Origin: a bacterium
GTDB taxonomy: Bacteria; JAJVIF01; JAGGVT01
DNA length: 6,499 nt
NCBI GenBank assembly: GCA_021157815.1
Contig: JAGGVT010000046.1
Coordinates: 1 to 6,499, forward strand
Direction of reading: 5' to 3'
The notes below the pieces were generated by a model. The model had not been told where the DNA came from. It saw nothing but the letters and a program-made list of their open reading frames with translations, and made no database searches. Below, one piece after another: positions 242 to 5,964 of the stretch; position 1 is the first letter of the stretch, and each line of letters opens with the position of its first letter. A program made the position numbers and the translations under genes.

Positions 242-1894
242 CTATTCGAATAATTCTTCCTGATACGCGACCAAATCCTGTATATATCCCGCGATTCCCA
301 ATTCATAACCCTCCTGCCAAAGAAGCAAATCAGCGCCTCTGTAGAGAAGCAGTATTGATGGCAGCTTGTTGAAATGCTTGTCATCGTCTTTCCTGCGTTT
401 CAGTCCGAATGCTTCCGCGACCTCACCGGATTCATCAATAATTATTGGGAAATCAATCCCGTTTTCATCGATGAACTTTCTCAATTCAGCCTCATCAACA
501 GGACCCGCGTGAATGCCCCACACCTTGATTTTCGCTTTCTTGAAATTCTTCAACGATGGCAGAGTCGGAATCATTCGCTGGCATGGTTCGCCATGAAGGT
601 CAAAAATCGCGATTACACTGTATTTAGACATGTAGGCGAGTTTTGAATTGAAGATGCCTTCACGATCAAATGCCGGAAGTTCCCACTCAGGCAGATCATC
701 CAGCTCTCGAGCTACGAGGTCTTTTCTGTCCAAATCGCCAATCGGCGGGTCTAGTTTGATTTCAAGCGGGACAACATCGCCGGCTTTAAGTTCGATTTGT
801 TTGGTGAACACATAAACCGAACCATCTTTTACACGAACACCAGCTTCGACAAGATATGTCCCATCACCGAGAACAAGTTGGGTTGCTGCTTCATCGCCGG
901 TTGACATGCGCGATTCCTCAATATTGAATCCCAAATCACGCAGAGGAATCCAGCCACCATTGTTATATACGGCAATAGAGAAATCCTCGAAATCCTTTTG
1001 CTTCAATCCATGACGGAAGAACGTTAATTCAATTATTCCGGTTTCTGTATAATTCGGAGTTATTTGCAGCGCACTGAATGCGCTTGTTGTCGCGACAACA
1101 GTTACGTTATGTTCATTTTCTTTTTCGAATTTTTCAAAATCTCCGAAACTGTCAGGATCATCAGGAAAAAGCGGAATCCATTTATCGCCGTCAAAAATTT
1201 CCACCCAAGAGGCTCCGCCCGATTGTCCGCCGAAAGTTCTGCATCGGGCACTTCTCGATGGCACACCCAAAGATTTCAAAATCGCTGTGGTCAGATTGGC
1301 TATGTCAGTAGGCGATCCGAGTTGAATTCGAAGAACCTGGTCAGGCGCCTGTTGAGGACCGTAAATGCCTCGATAGCGTTCTTTCACATTTTCGAATACC
1401 CATAAATTCACATTTTTTGCCGTTTCAGTAGGAGTGTTTCCAGCCATATCCTTGAAACGTTCGAATATCATCTTTCGCCAAAGTGTAAGAGGCTCATAAC
1501 CGATTCGATACACCAGAATATATTGCCGGAACATATCATCCGGTATTTTATAGGCAAAATCTGTTTTTGCCTTGTAGGCATATTCCAGATGTTCCAGGAG
1601 GATTTCGGGTGTCGCCTCAAGCCTGTCCAGATGTGGCATCTGCAAAATTTGCCACAGGAGGTCCTCCTGTTTTTTGCCATCTACAGAGATAATGGCCTCT
1701 GCAAGGCTTCCCCAGTTGGTGCCGGCGTCTTTCAACGCGTTCATAAGTTTGTCTTTGGATTCGTGATTCTCAATTACATCTTTCAGTCCGGGAAACTTTT
1801 TAAGGTTCAGTTCCTCGTCATCCGCCGAGAAAACAGGCGTTGATGATATTGAGAAAATCATAATCGCCATTATTACTGGTATGAGATATCGCAT
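242..1894 (-). CDS. Secreted transglutaminase-like protein with C-terminal thioredoxin-like domain, both active sites degenerate
   Basis: The product is 550 aa. An N-terminal signal peptide (about residues 1-23, hydrophobic core IPVIMAIMIFSI, cleavage near VFS/ADD, no lipobox) suggests export to the periplasm or beyond. A helical region (about 25-165) precedes a transglutaminase-like fold (about 165-255). There GSPTDIANL (193-201) and GASWVEI (227-233) align with the family's G-x-C and H-A-W-V-E motifs, but Cys is Pro195 and His is Ala228; an Asp (245/246) remains. A beta-rich Ig-like region follows (about 275-385). Residues 405-545 look like a TlpA/AhpC-type thioredoxin fold: in GEPC (435-438) only the second Cys of CxxC remains, and LPSI (511-514) fits the cis-Pro loop. 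The ATG start is set by GGAGG (plus-strand 1901-1905) 6 nt upstream. The upstream gene on the same strand is a paralogue. I infer a binding or structural role rather than catalysis. The fold calls come from motif reading only. Confidence 0.85.
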   Translation of the reverse strand: MRYLIPVIMAIMIFSISSTPVFSADDEELNLKKFPGLKDVIENHESKDKLMNALKDAGTNWGSLAEAIISVDGKKQEDLLWQILQMPHLDRLEATPEILLEHLEYAYKAKTDFAYKIPDDMFRQYILVYRIGYEPLTLWRKMIFERFKDMAGNTPTETAKNVNLWVFENVKERYRGIYGPQQAPDQVLRIQLGSPTDIANLTTAILKSLGVPSRSARCRTFGGQSGGASWVEIFDGDKWIPLFPDDPDSFGDFEKFEKENEHNVTVVATTSAFSALQITPNYTETGIIELTFFRHGLKQKDFEDFSIAVYNNGGWIPLRDLGFNIEESRMSTGDEAATQLVLGDGTYLVEAGVRVKDGSVYVFTKQIELKAGDVVPLEIKLDPPIGDLDRKDLVARELDDLPEWELPAFDREGIFNSKLAYMSKYSVIAIFDLHGEPCQRMIPTLPSLKNFKKAKIKVWGIHAGPVDEAELRKFIDENGIDFPIIIDESGEVAEAFGLKRRKDDDKHFNKLPSILLLYRGADLLLWQEGYELGIAGYIQDLVAYQEELFE

Positions 1895-2164: not shown

Positions 2165-3409
2165 TTATTCCTCTTTCTTTGCCGGTCTGACCCAGAAATA
2201 ACCATCAAGTACAGGCCCTTTAACCGGTTTGATTGTAGCTTTAGCCTTCTGTCCCTTTTTAATCGTCACAAGTTTTCCGCCTCCGAGTTCTTCATTGCCG
2301 GCGGATATGAAATATTTTCCTGCCCCGATTGTTATTTCAGCCACGCCGTTTTCGTCAGTGGCAATTCTCGCGATTGGACGTAACCCGCCAAAATTGAATA
2401 CGTAAACATATACGTTTGCCTCTACCATTGGTTCGCCGTCTTCATAAAGAGCTGTAACCTCAAGCTTGCCGGGTGTTGTGTAGAAATTAGTAGAGTTGAC
2501 AATGGCGTATTTTTCAGGTTTGTCGTCAACATACCTGTAGATTTCCTCGTCCATAGTTTCCAAATTTGGAAGCCCATAGGGGATAGTCCACACAAGCGCG
2601 GCTCGTCTTGCCGGATTTGAAAACCATGCTGAATTGAGAGTATCTTTCGACTCGCACGCGCCAAGATAATTCCACCGCTCATTTGCCCAGACCTCAACCC
2701 ATGCGTGGTTGTTGTCGCAGTGCGCCCAATATGGCGTCCATGCGTGACGTACCGGAATGCCGACACTGCGCGCGGCGTCCATATAAAATATCATCATCTC
2801 TTCACATCTGCCGTATCCGCTTTTCAGTGTCTCGAATGGTCCCTGGTCTCTGTACTGTGTCGGTTTAAATCCAACGAGTTCATCGCTGTATCTATTCACC
2901 TCAAGAGCTGCTTCCTCAAGAGTTTCACAATCTTTCAATCTGTCTTTCAACGCGTCATAGAAAAATTTCCTGAAATTAACTATCGGTTCCTGGCTTACAC
3001 GATGAGGTAAAACATAAAGATAGAAAAACTCATCGCTGTAATCATCGCCCCACGGGAATTCCTCACGGGCTTTGAACGCGAAGTTGATATTGTCCACGAA
3101 AGTGTCAACATCCATCGCGACAATATCCACAAGAGGCATGAAAGCGACAAGGAATACACCCGCTCGTTTTTTCTCGTCGGAATTCAATTGAGCAAACGCT
3201 TCTTCGAACACGCCAATATTTTCACCCATGATTCCGACGTTTTCCTCGAAAGCCTCAAGCCAAATCGGCGGGAGTGAATCTTTAATTGATTCAATATCAA
3301 TTTTTCCGTTTTGGGCAAAAGCGGGATTTGCTCCAAACGAGTTTGTCCCAAACGAGTTTGCTCCGAACAGAATGAATATAATCACTACAGGTAAAAGGAA
3401 TTTACGCAC
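2165..3409 (-). CDS. Secreted transglutaminase-like (papain-fold) protein with Ig-like C-terminal domain
   Basis: The product is 414 aa. A signal peptide (hydrophobic core LLPVVIIFILFG, cleavage likely AFA/QNG after residue 32) marks an exported protein. A helical region (about 35-165) leads into a transglutaminase-like domain (about 170-280). GYGRCEE (198-204) carries the likely nucleophile Cys202, and NHAWVEVW (234-241) carries His235. In the LGACE motif (249-253) the third triad position, Asp in peptide N-glycanase-like relatives, is Gly250, with Glu253 nearby. LNSAWFSNPARRA and the following residues recall a family of secreted bacterial transglutaminase-like proteins known mainly from Bacteroidetes. 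Residues 315-395 look like a carboxypeptidase-regulatory/Ig-like beta domain. The GTG start is chosen from its Shine-Dalgarno site and the signal peptide. The region around residues 107-148 matches residues 101-141 of the downstream product. Protein cleavage or crosslinking activity is inferred; the substrate is unknown. Confidence 0.88.
   Translation of the reverse strand: MRKFLLPVVIIFILFGANSFGTNSFGANPAFAQNGKIDIESIKDSLPPIWLEAFEENVGIMGENIGVFEEAFAQLNSDEKKRAGVFLVAFMPLVDIVAMDVDTFVDNINFAFKAREEFPWGDDYSDEFFYLYVLPHRVSQEPIVNFRKFFYDALKDRLKDCETLEEAALEVNRYSDELVGFKPTQYRDQGPFETLKSGYGRCEEMMIFYMDAARSVGIPVRHAWTPYWAHCDNNHAWVEVWANERWNYLGACESKDTLNSAWFSNPARRAALVWTIPYGLPNLETMDEEIYRYVDDKPEKYAIVNSTNFYTTPGKLEVTALYEDGEPMVEANVYVYVFNFGGLRPIARIATDENGVAEITIGAGKYFISAGNEELGGGKLVTIKKGQKAKATIKPVKGPVLDGYFWVRPAKKEE
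3330..3374 (-). repeat. In-frame 15-bp tandem repeat inside the signal-peptide coding region
   Basis: The plus strand holds two 15-bp units (3330-3344 and 3345-3359) differing at 2 of 15 positions, then a third copy (3360-3374) matching mainly over its first 9 bases. On the coding strand they specify the motif NSFG(A/T) repeated between the hydrophobic core and the AFA cleavage site. Since 15 is a multiple of 3, copy-number change would lengthen or shorten the signal-peptide C-region without a frameshift. Confidence 0.8.
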
Positions 3410-3497: not shown

Positions 3498-3527
3498 TTG
3501 GAATTTTAGTGGTAGATAAGTTAATAT
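3498..3527 (+). promoter_or_regulatory. Tentative sigma70-type promoter for ribE
   Basis: TTGGAA (3498-3503) and TAATAT (3522-3527) each match consensus at 4 of 6 positions, with an 18-nt spacer. They sit directly before the 8-bp array, so a transcript would start inside the array and carry it as its leader. This is a weak match in AT-rich DNA. No FMN riboswitch was recognised between 3410 and 3669. Confidence 0.28.
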
Positions 3528-3663
3528 GTTAGCAAGTTAGCAAGTTAGCAGGTTAGCAAGTTAGCAGGTTAGTAAGTTGGCAGGTTAGTAAGTTGGCAGG
3601 TTAGTAAGTTGGCAGGTTAGCAAGTTAGCAGGTTAGCAGGTTAGCAGGTTGGCAGGTTGGCAG
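3528..3663. repeat. Minisatellite: 17 tandem copies of the 8-bp unit GTTAGCAR
   Basis: Seventeen uninterrupted 8-bp units run from 3528 to 3663, with a degenerate unit (GTTAATAT) just before at 3520-3527 and a partial GT after. The variants are GTTAGCAA, GTTAGCAG, GTTAGTAA and GTTGGCAG. Units 6-11 form three copies of a 16-bp higher-order repeat (GTTAGTAA plus GTTGGCAG), which suggests expansion by slippage or unequal exchange. The array ends 6 bases before the ribE ATG. Because 8 is not a multiple of 3 and most units contain TAG, the array is not a coding repeat. It has no spacer structure, so it is not a CRISPR array. Confidence 0.95.
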
Positions 3664-3665
3664 GT
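3662..3665 (+). promoter_or_regulatory. Weak ribE ribosome-binding site at the edge of the repeat array
   Basis: AGGT, made of the last two bases of the final array unit and the next two bases, lies 4 nt before the ATG at 3670 (AGG with 5-nt spacing). It is the only Shine-Dalgarno-like match near this start. Earlier units ending in CAG before GTT offer the same AGGT at 8-base intervals. Confidence 0.45.
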
Positions 3666-3669
3666 AATT

Positions 3670-4326
3670 ATGTTTACAGGACTCATTACACATATTGGGC
3701 AAGTTGGAAATGTTAAGCGTCAGAGTGATGGCTTATCGCTAACTGTTGAATGCCCTGATTCTTTTATGGACGATGTGCAAATCGGCGACAGCGTTGCGGT
3801 ATCGGGTGCATGCCTGACTGTAACTCAAATGAAAGGCAATCAATTCACCGTCGATATCAGCCGGGAGACAATCGACTGTTCGACCATTTCAAAATGGCTC
3901 AAGGGCAGGAAAGCCAATCTGGAAAAATCACTGAAAGCGTCAGACAGTCTCGGAGGTCATTTTGTAATGGGGCATGTCGATGGCATTGCCAAACTGGTCA
4001 AAAACGAGAAAGCAGGGGAGGGGAGTATTTTAACTTTTGAAACTTCAGAGGGAATCGCTGGCATGATTGTACCCAAAGGCTCGGTCAGTATCGACGGCGT
4101 CAGCCTGACTCCGGCATCCTCTGAAAAAACCAAATTCAGCATCGCGATAATTCCTCACACACTCGCCAACACAACTCTAGCCGATTTATCCATCGGCGAT
4201 GAGGTAAACGTCGAAATCGACATCTTCGCCAGATACATCTTCGAGTTTCTGAAAAGCACAGGCAATCTGCCAGACGTAAAAGAGAGTAACCTCACAATAG
4301 ACGAGCTTCGCAAAGAAGGATTTTAA
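3670..4326 (+). CDS. ribE: Riboflavin synthase, alpha chain
   Basis: This cytoplasmic enzyme dismutates two 6,7-dimethyl-8-ribityllumazine molecules to riboflavin plus a pyrimidinedione, the last step of riboflavin synthesis. The 218-aa length is typical. The two repeated beta-barrel lobes are visible: the N-lobe has MFTGLI at the start, GACLTV (46-51) and LGGHFVMGHVDG (94-105); the C-lobe has KGSVSIDGVSLT (136-147), IPHTLANTTL (161-170) and VNVEIDIFARYI (179-190). Phe2, Ser41, Cys48 and His102, recalled as active-site residues of the E. coli enzyme, are all present. The ATG at 3670 is chosen because the family begins MFTGLI; an in-frame TTG at 3649 would add seven residues encoded by the repeat array. 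It stands alone without ribD, ribBA or ribH and without a recognisable FMN riboswitch. The symbol follows the ribE usage; E. coli calls it ribC. Confidence 0.97.
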   Translation: MFTGLITHIGQVGNVKRQSDGLSLTVECPDSFMDDVQIGDSVAVSGACLTVTQMKGNQFTVDISRETIDCSTISKWLKGRKANLEKSLKASDSLGGHFVMGHVDGIAKLVKNEKAGEGSILTFETSEGIAGMIVPKGSVSIDGVSLTPASSEKTKFSIAIIPHTLANTTLADLSIGDEVNVEIDIFARYIFEFLKSTGNLPDVKESNLTIDELRKEGF

Positions 4327-4896: not shown

Positions 4897-5964
4897 CTAG
4901 AATGTGTGTGATGTTCCCGAGCCGGTCAGTACCGCTACAACACCATCCTTGATTCCATCCGGCGCGCCGTAAAGCCAGTCATTACCTGCGATATCCTTTG
5001 GCGGAAACATTGGATGATTGTTTTCATCGCCGCCACCGAATACCTCCGGTAGCCCTATAACAATATCGGGATATCCATCCATCGGTTTGGCGTAGAAAGT
5101 TTCACCAGGAACAAGAATATTCCTGATGACATCTTTTCCCGACGTTGATTTTGAACCATATCCGCCAAGTATATATGTATTGAATTTGTGATAGCGGAAA
5201 TTATGTACCTGTAATCCGGCACCGCCGCCTATAACCGTTGCCGCCTGATCATAATCTCCCATCGCGCGATAGAAGAAATTGCCCTCCCACCAGTCGTTTA
5301 CAGGAATCGGATTGCCGCTGAGGTCATCGACCTGATTGCCGCCGAAACGATAATTCAGCTGGCCTATCAGGTTTTCTTCCGCGCCGATACGGCTGTTCGC
5401 CCAGTGAAGCTTGATCTGGTCAATATCCCAGGGTTCTTCCTCACCGTTTGGTAATGTGCGAGTGGGTGTTGTTAGTCCACCGATTGTGGTAATGTTTAAA
5501 AATCTGGGGTCGTCGAGGCCGTTTCCAACAACATCTCCAGCCATTCCGAATCGAGGATCACCTGTACCAGCTTCATTATTGCCGCCAGTAAGTTTCACAA
5601 TATTGTGCGATTGCGCCTGGTTGACAAACGGATTTTTGGGATAGCTGATTTCGATATAACCTTTTTCGATAAGTGGGTCCATTAACCATCGCGCATCCTC
5701 GTTGCCGGCATCACGCATTCTTTTCTGGAAACGATACCAGCCGCCCTGGTCGCCACCGCCTATATAAGCCGGGTACTGCGAATGGTCAACATAAAATCTT
5801 TCCAAAGCCGCCTGAATTACATGCAGGTTCGCTTTGACCTCCGCTTCTTTTGCCTTGTTTCGCGCTCGTGTCATATTTGGAATCGCCAGCGCTGCCAGGA
5901 TTCCTATAATTGTTATGACGACAAGCATCTCCACGAGGGTGAAACCGTTCTGGCTTCTTTGCAT
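4897..5964 (-). CDS. Large type II secretion/type IV pilin-like protein (prepilin N-terminal methylation motif)
   Basis: The 355-aa product starts with a class III prepilin signal: MQRSQNG/FTLVEMLVVIT, cleaved after Gly7 by a prepilin peptidase with N-methylation of Phe8. Glu12 is the conserved Glu5 of the mature pilin. A single hydrophobic helix (about 8-30) continues into an amphipathic helix (about 31-57). It should pass through the inner membrane and assemble into a pseudopilus or pilus. FYVDHSQYPAY (57-67) and KNPFVNQ (110-116) recall the region after the helix in GspG-type major pseudopilins. It is more than twice the usual GspG length (about 140 aa); the extra sequence is a Gly/Asn/Asp-rich, cysteine-free globular part. 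No secretion or pilus genes adjoin it, so it may be an orphan or minor pilin. The ATG has GGGAG 10 nt upstream (plus-strand 5975-5979). Confidence 0.9.
   Translation of the reverse strand: MQRSQNGFTLVEMLVVITIIGILAALAIPNMTRARNKAKEAEVKANLHVIQAALERFYVDHSQYPAYIGGGDQGGWYRFQKRMRDAGNEDARWLMDPLIEKGYIEISYPKNPFVNQAQSHNIVKLTGGNNEAGTGDPRFGMAGDVVGNGLDDPRFLNITTIGGLTTPTRTLPNGEEEPWDIDQIKLHWANSRIGAEENLIGQLNYRFGGNQVDDLSGNPIPVNDWWEGNFFYRAMGDYDQAATVIGGGAGLQVHNFRYHKFNTYILGGYGSKSTSGKDVIRNILVPGETFYAKPMDGYPDIVIGLPEVFGGGDENNHPMFPPKDIAGNDWLYGAPDGIKDGVVAVLTGSGTSHTF

Follow-up and report, generated by a model that had tools for sequence, protein, structure and literature searches.

Enzyme folds that have lost their catalytic residues are known from eukaryotes. 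Erythrocyte band 4.2 has a transglutaminase fold without the catalytic Cys and plays a structural role, and the b and b′ domains of protein disulfide isomerase are non-catalytic thioredoxin folds that lack CxxC and bind clients. The protein described here, the product of a bacterial gene designated B, resembles both in these losses. However, band 4.2 is eukaryotic, has no thioredoxin domain and shares neither gene nor operon with an active paralogue, and protein disulfide isomerase is likewise eukaryotic and of unrelated architecture. By profile match B is like the transglutaminase-core superfamily (PF01841), e.g. a putative cysteine protease of Cytophaga hutchinsonii (PDB 3isr) and peptide:N-glycanase (2f4m), yet it lacks the Cys and His, both of which are present in the neighbouring gene product A. 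With the ResA/TlpA/DsbE family (PF00578) B shares the fold, the E-P of the ResA CEPC motif, the cis-Pro position and the groove Gly; it differs in having no CxxC and in being joined to a dead transglutaminase core. A fragment of a Bacteroides fragilis "possible transglutaminase-family protein" (PDB 3e8v) is the beta-sandwich of the A half of relatives in which A and B are fused; only 82 residues were solved and the B half is not in the structure. No description of the two-dead-fold architecture of B was found in the non-subscription literature searched. One report lists exported transglutaminase-domain proteins of B. vulgatus, with no analysis of architecture in the passages concerned (PMC11035120). 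The B family is apparently widespread and undescribed.

The window, i.e. the whole stretch of DNA analysed, is 6499 bases long and makes up an entire contig (C96) of a 3.2-Mb source genome, 91% complete in 221 contigs; its phylum is represented by four genomes in the collection searched. Gene B lies at 242..1894 on the minus strand, as do all the features given below for B, and its assignment as an exported pseudo-transglutaminase/pseudo-thioredoxin protein draws on the open frame, Pfam matches and homologues in many phyla. The frame of 550 aa starts with ATG and is uninterrupted in the ORF listing, with GGAGG just 5′ of the ATG and, 3′ of the stop codon, a 12-bp hairpin followed by TTTTTG (186-212), the likely terminator of B. 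The intact 550-codon frame, Shine-Dalgarno site and likely terminator of the original prediction are all present. Residues ~1-24 (MRYLIPVIMAIMIFSISSTPVFSA; 1823..1894) read by eye as a Sec-type signal peptide. The N-terminal helical domain that follows (residues ~25-150; 1445..1822), delimited from the AlphaFold2 model m175efb77d260 and alignments, is common to A and carries near-invariant Asp90, Arg130 and Glu134. Next come the transglutaminase-core domain (residues 152-242; 1169..1441), identified by Pfam and by alignment with the paralogue, in which Pro195 occupies the Cys position and Ala228 the His position, and a beta-sandwich domain (residues ~285-381; 752..1042), whose strands are seen in the model and which aligns with the corresponding part of A. 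The chain ends in a ResA/TlpA-type thioredoxin domain (residues ~393-550; 245..718), recognized by Pfam, phmmer, fold match and alignment, in which GEPC435-438, Arg440, Pro512 at the cis-Pro position and Gly529 are found.

Both enzyme folds of B are recovered by Pfam. Transglut_core (PF01841) matches residues 152-242 with 45.0 bits against a cut-off of 23, which places B in the superfamily by profile, and AhpC-TSA (PF00578) matches residues 400-502 with 43.9 bits against a cut-off of 26. In the alignment with neighbouring paralogues that bear Cys and His, Pro195 falls on the catalytic Cys of GYGRC and Ala228 on the His of NNHAW, and phmmer aligns GEPC onto ResA CEPC with Gly435 at the first Cys position and Cys438 at the second. 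The AlphaFold2 model of B, made with 67 homologues, has a pLDDT of 82 and a pTM of 0.77. Residues 392-549 match structures of ResA, DsbE, CcmG and PrxQ, the best being 2f9s (ResA; Z 17.2, rmsd 2.2 Å, 136 residues), and together with the alignment of Pro512 at the cis-Pro position this predicts a thioredoxin fold for the C-terminal domain. The original claim of two enzyme folds without catalytic residues, joined in one secreted protein, is thus confirmed by Pfam, the alignments and the ResA fold match, and the positions it gave (Pro195, Ala228, GEPC435-438 and Pro512) are all right. The structural comparison it proposed bore out the thioredoxin domain; the transglutaminase core had no fold match among the matches listed, which were filled by thioredoxin matches.

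Directly upstream of B and on the same strand lies gene A (2165..3409, minus strand), which the original prediction did not mention. As judged from the ORF, Pfam and alignments, it encodes a putative exported transglutaminase-like enzyme of 414 aa, the second transglutaminase-core protein of the window, with GYGRC and NNHAW, and hence Cys202 and His235, intact. The two proteins are paralogues (hhalign E 2.8e-37 over 319 columns), Pro195 pairing with Cys202 and Ala228 with His235. Across homologues of A, the catalytic Cys and the His are each present in 116/116. The usual third catalytic residue, Asp, is replaced by Gly in 111 of the 116, and a conserved Glu occurs three residues later (GACEP); the catalytic triad may be rearranged. 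Because the usual Asp is absent, the activity of A is not certain, and we infer that it is active as an enzyme. Its resemblance to cysteine-protease-like and peptide:N-glycanase-like transglutaminases is weak (E 0.002 for the peptide:N-glycanase match).

Homologues of B were sought in 97 genomes and afterwards in the phyla of several matches. The closest relative in the 97-genome search is 36% identical to window B; a first scan of genome contigs with B alone as query gave no match. With an alignment of A as query, 582 related stretches were found in the genome collection, and 80 named loci were kept. Removal of duplicates left 17 stand-alone B proteins, 92 proteins in which A is followed by a long C-terminal half, and 24 frames with A only, some of which are cut by contig ends. 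Both A and B served as queries, so that cases of A lacking any B may be under-represented. The stand-alone B set was later extended by six proteins.

The second half of the fused proteins is B-like: another transglutaminase core is followed by a beta-sandwich and a thioredoxin-like end, the last of which is missing from the available DNA or unaligned in 16 of 90 aligned tails. The fused protein is a single chain of ~880 aa in Bacteroidota, Planctomycetota, Zixibacteria and others. By named phylum, fusions occur in Bacteroidota, Planctomycetota, Zixiibacteriota, Krumholzibacteriota, Eiseniibacteriota, Aminicenantota, Acidobacteriota and Cloacimonadota; two further loci labelled Bacillota may be mis-binned. 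Both halves are one polypeptide in most lineages sampled, and split genes are found in the window's phylum, Eisenbacteria, UBP14, UBP7 and others. In Thermophagus xiamenensis (L113:4363-7020) two frames, of 300 and 564 aa, stand in place of the fused one, through either a recent split or a frameshift. The A part is matched in 54 of 149 Bacteroidales genomes, about a third of those sampled, some of the matches being shorter paralogues; this order-level figure is preferred to the 1/198 obtained with the fused profile over the whole phylum, for which few candidates were scored per genome. Pfam annotates the fused proteins as transglutaminase-core only. A distant transglutaminase relative is also encoded on two "Bacteriophage sp." contigs from human faeces (MT837403.1 and MT835747.1), which may be mislabelled bacterial DNA.

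The novelty lies in a widespread live/dead pair and not in a single gene. Half of each fused protein consists of two dead enzyme folds maintained by selection in many phyla, common gut and oral Bacteroidales among them. With the genes split in the window's phylum, the live and dead halves can be made separately, so that the effect of a pseudoenzyme on its active sibling is directly testable.

Loss of the catalytic residues is a property of the whole B family. The transglutaminase Cys is found in 0/107 homologues (Pro195 in the window) and the His in one of 102 (Ala228 in the window), the exception (L088) itself lacking the Cys; neither position has a fixed substitute. At the thioredoxin site the first Cys is found in 0/91, and none of the 91 has the CxxC of a thiol-disulfide oxidoreductase or the peroxidatic Cys of a peroxiredoxin. 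Instead the former CxxC site reads E-P-[S/T]-x-[R/H], with Glu436 in 91/91, Pro437 in 83/91, Ser/Thr at the second Cys position in 81/91 and Arg/His440 in 85/91; Pro512 (90/90) and Gly529 (89/89) are fixed as well. Columns of the domain with full or almost full conservation are E436, P437, P512 and G529, which, judging from known ResA and thioredoxin structures, we take to lie at the former active site or groove. The six B proteins added later likewise lack the catalytic residues, and one of them (L184) has Glu-Ala in place of Glu-Pro. What was observed in the window is correct, and more general than one gene. The consistent replacement of Cys and His, which had been proposed as a check, holds among the homologues. 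The reading of Cys438 does not fare as well: B has two cysteines, Cys218 and Cys438, so the latter is not the lone one, and with Cys at this position in only 2/91 homologues (the window and L045) the suggested mixed disulfide or dimer is not supported and Cys438 is rejected as a functional residue.

Selection on B was estimated by the Nei-Gojobori method in four close pairs, as had also been proposed. The dN/dS of B is 0.16-0.24 overall, 0.19-0.45 for the pseudo-transglutaminase part and 0.13-0.31 for the pseudo-thioredoxin part, and that of A in the same genome pairs is 0.18-0.32. These pairs all come from outside the window's genus, more distant pairs being saturated or nearly so at synonymous sites, and in the three Eisenbacteria loci the start taken for B may lie too far 5′, so that its frame runs into the end of A, possibly biasing the first part. 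The values indicate purifying selection, and with the group-wide loss of catalytic residues they mark B as an apparent pseudoenzyme. Because the loss is family-wide and selection is purifying, B is apparently a selected, non-catalytic protein and not a product of decay, in line with the original prediction.

In a tree of the shared helical and transglutaminase region, A forms one clade (SH-aLRT 99), which contains one odd transglutaminase row, and B falls outside it. The B rows divide into two main groups, stand-alone and fused, and one long-branched row apart from them. The Planctomycetota fusions group with stand-alone B, and therefore fusion or fission of A and B probably happened more than once. 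Branches of B are longer than those of A, i.e. B evolves faster. Groupings of lineages in A broadly recur in B, as co-inheritance would predict, an agreement that alone is no proof of interaction.

Fusion, adjacency and co-occurrence are the customary genomic argument for a functional partnership, and each is found here. A is present in 22 of the 23 genomes with stand-alone B, the sole genome without A at the threshold used (G494) being 84% complete. The two genes are adjacent in 13 of the 23, in both orders (A-B, and B-A in G019), and in some (G001, G033 and G131) the frames touch or overlap. A is fused to a B-like half in the 92 proteins found. The window itself has the Cys/His-bearing paralogue beside B at 2165-3409. 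On these genomic patterns a partnership of A and B appears well supported; since B is nearly always beside, co-occurring with or fused to A, it is probably a helper of A.

We consider it rather probable that B serves the transglutaminase-like cysteine enzyme A as a dedicated partner without catalytic function and re-uses its thioredoxin groove to hold a peptide or client, the role of the groove being held with less confidence than the rest. Both proteins would be exported, and A would do the chemistry with its Cys-His pair. B would pack with A, as a second subunit in the window's organism and, in Bacteroidota and others, as the latter half of a single chain, and its dead transglutaminase core would act as a scaffold or contribute to the substrate cleft. 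The dead thioredoxin domain, which keeps a groove with E-P-[S/T]-x-[R/H], the cis-Pro and the Gly, would probably hold a peptide or client for A, in the manner of the non-catalytic thioredoxin domains of protein disulfide isomerase; alternatively, B may gate A. It is because the fixed columns (Glu-Pro of the former CEPC, the cis-Pro and the Gly facing it) line the ResA/thioredoxin active site and groove, as would suit a binding groove retained when redox chemistry was lost, that B is proposed to present a peptide or client to A or to gate it. The fused Planctomycetota protein L037 (964 aa; model m63f31f1a755e, 63 homologues) is predicted with a pLDDT of 84 and a pTM of 0.86, a value that would be unusual for loosely tethered halves and hints that A and B are held in a fixed position to each other. 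Weighing against the partner reading are the 9 genomes with A and B on different contigs, the faster evolution of B, genome G494 and the missing Asp of A. Complex formation and peptide binding are what we infer from these patterns. A stronger version, in which B is obligatory to a live transglutaminase-like hydrolase as its substrate-binding or regulatory half, in a widespread undescribed exported class where the former thioredoxin active site would have become a binding motif E-P-[S/T]-x-[R/H], is put forward tentatively, as something that could well prove wrong.

The best of the competing explanations, although an unlikely one, is that B is merely a structural or dimerization scaffold for A, with neither the dead core nor the dead groove binding substrate. 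A merely structural part would be expected to carry no fixed residue at the lost Cys and His positions, as is the case. The pTM of 0.86 of the fused model would suit a scaffold as well. However, the conserved thioredoxin columns lie at the former active site and groove and not elsewhere, which is odd for a pure scaffold.

That B is a secreted binding protein with its own function, independent of A, is improbable. The two genes are on different contigs in 9 of the 23 genomes, as such independence would allow, but A and B are fused in many phyla, adjacent in 13 genomes and almost always present together. Gene neighbours gave no constant partner: those in Bacteroidales include CutC in 8 of the 89 proteins scanned, GH29 fucosidase in 3 and GH92 mannosidase in 2. 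Assigning function from neighbours was rejected, as they are too scattered to point to a pathway, although the weak match of A to peptide:N-glycanase led to a link to N-glycans or glycoproteins being considered.

Even less credible is catalysis by B through other residues, such as the invariant Glu436 with Ser/Thr438 and Arg/His440. The near fixation of E-P-[S/T]-x-[R/H] across phyla speaks for it, but B has no other conserved Cys-His pair, and in the homologue alignment no column anywhere has Cys in at least 40%. We know of no catalytic motif of this type on a thioredoxin fold. That B is a decaying copy of A can be practically discounted: both catalytic centres are gone, but the loss is common to homologues with intact frames in many phyla and dN/dS is well below 1, and single-copy decay is rejected on both grounds.

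Between A and B, at 1975-2125, lies an imperfect palindrome of ~150 bp with inverted arms at 2002-2019 and 2089-2106. It has ~40 dispersed copies in the source genome, most with 86-94% identity, and no Rfam match; it looks MITE- or REP-like and is possibly an insertion in the A-B operon. At 3520-3670 a tandem array of an 8-bp unit (GTTAGCAG, GTTAGTAA and GTTGGCAG variants) lies directly upstream of a frame at 3649-4326 that by eye looks like a gene for riboflavin synthase alpha chain; the array contains the start of this frame as listed. Further along, 4897-5964 encodes a pseudopilin- or pilin-like protein that carries a methylation motif at its N-terminus and has a long C-terminal part; a relative of this protein occurs near another transglutaminase gene in G001 (L032).
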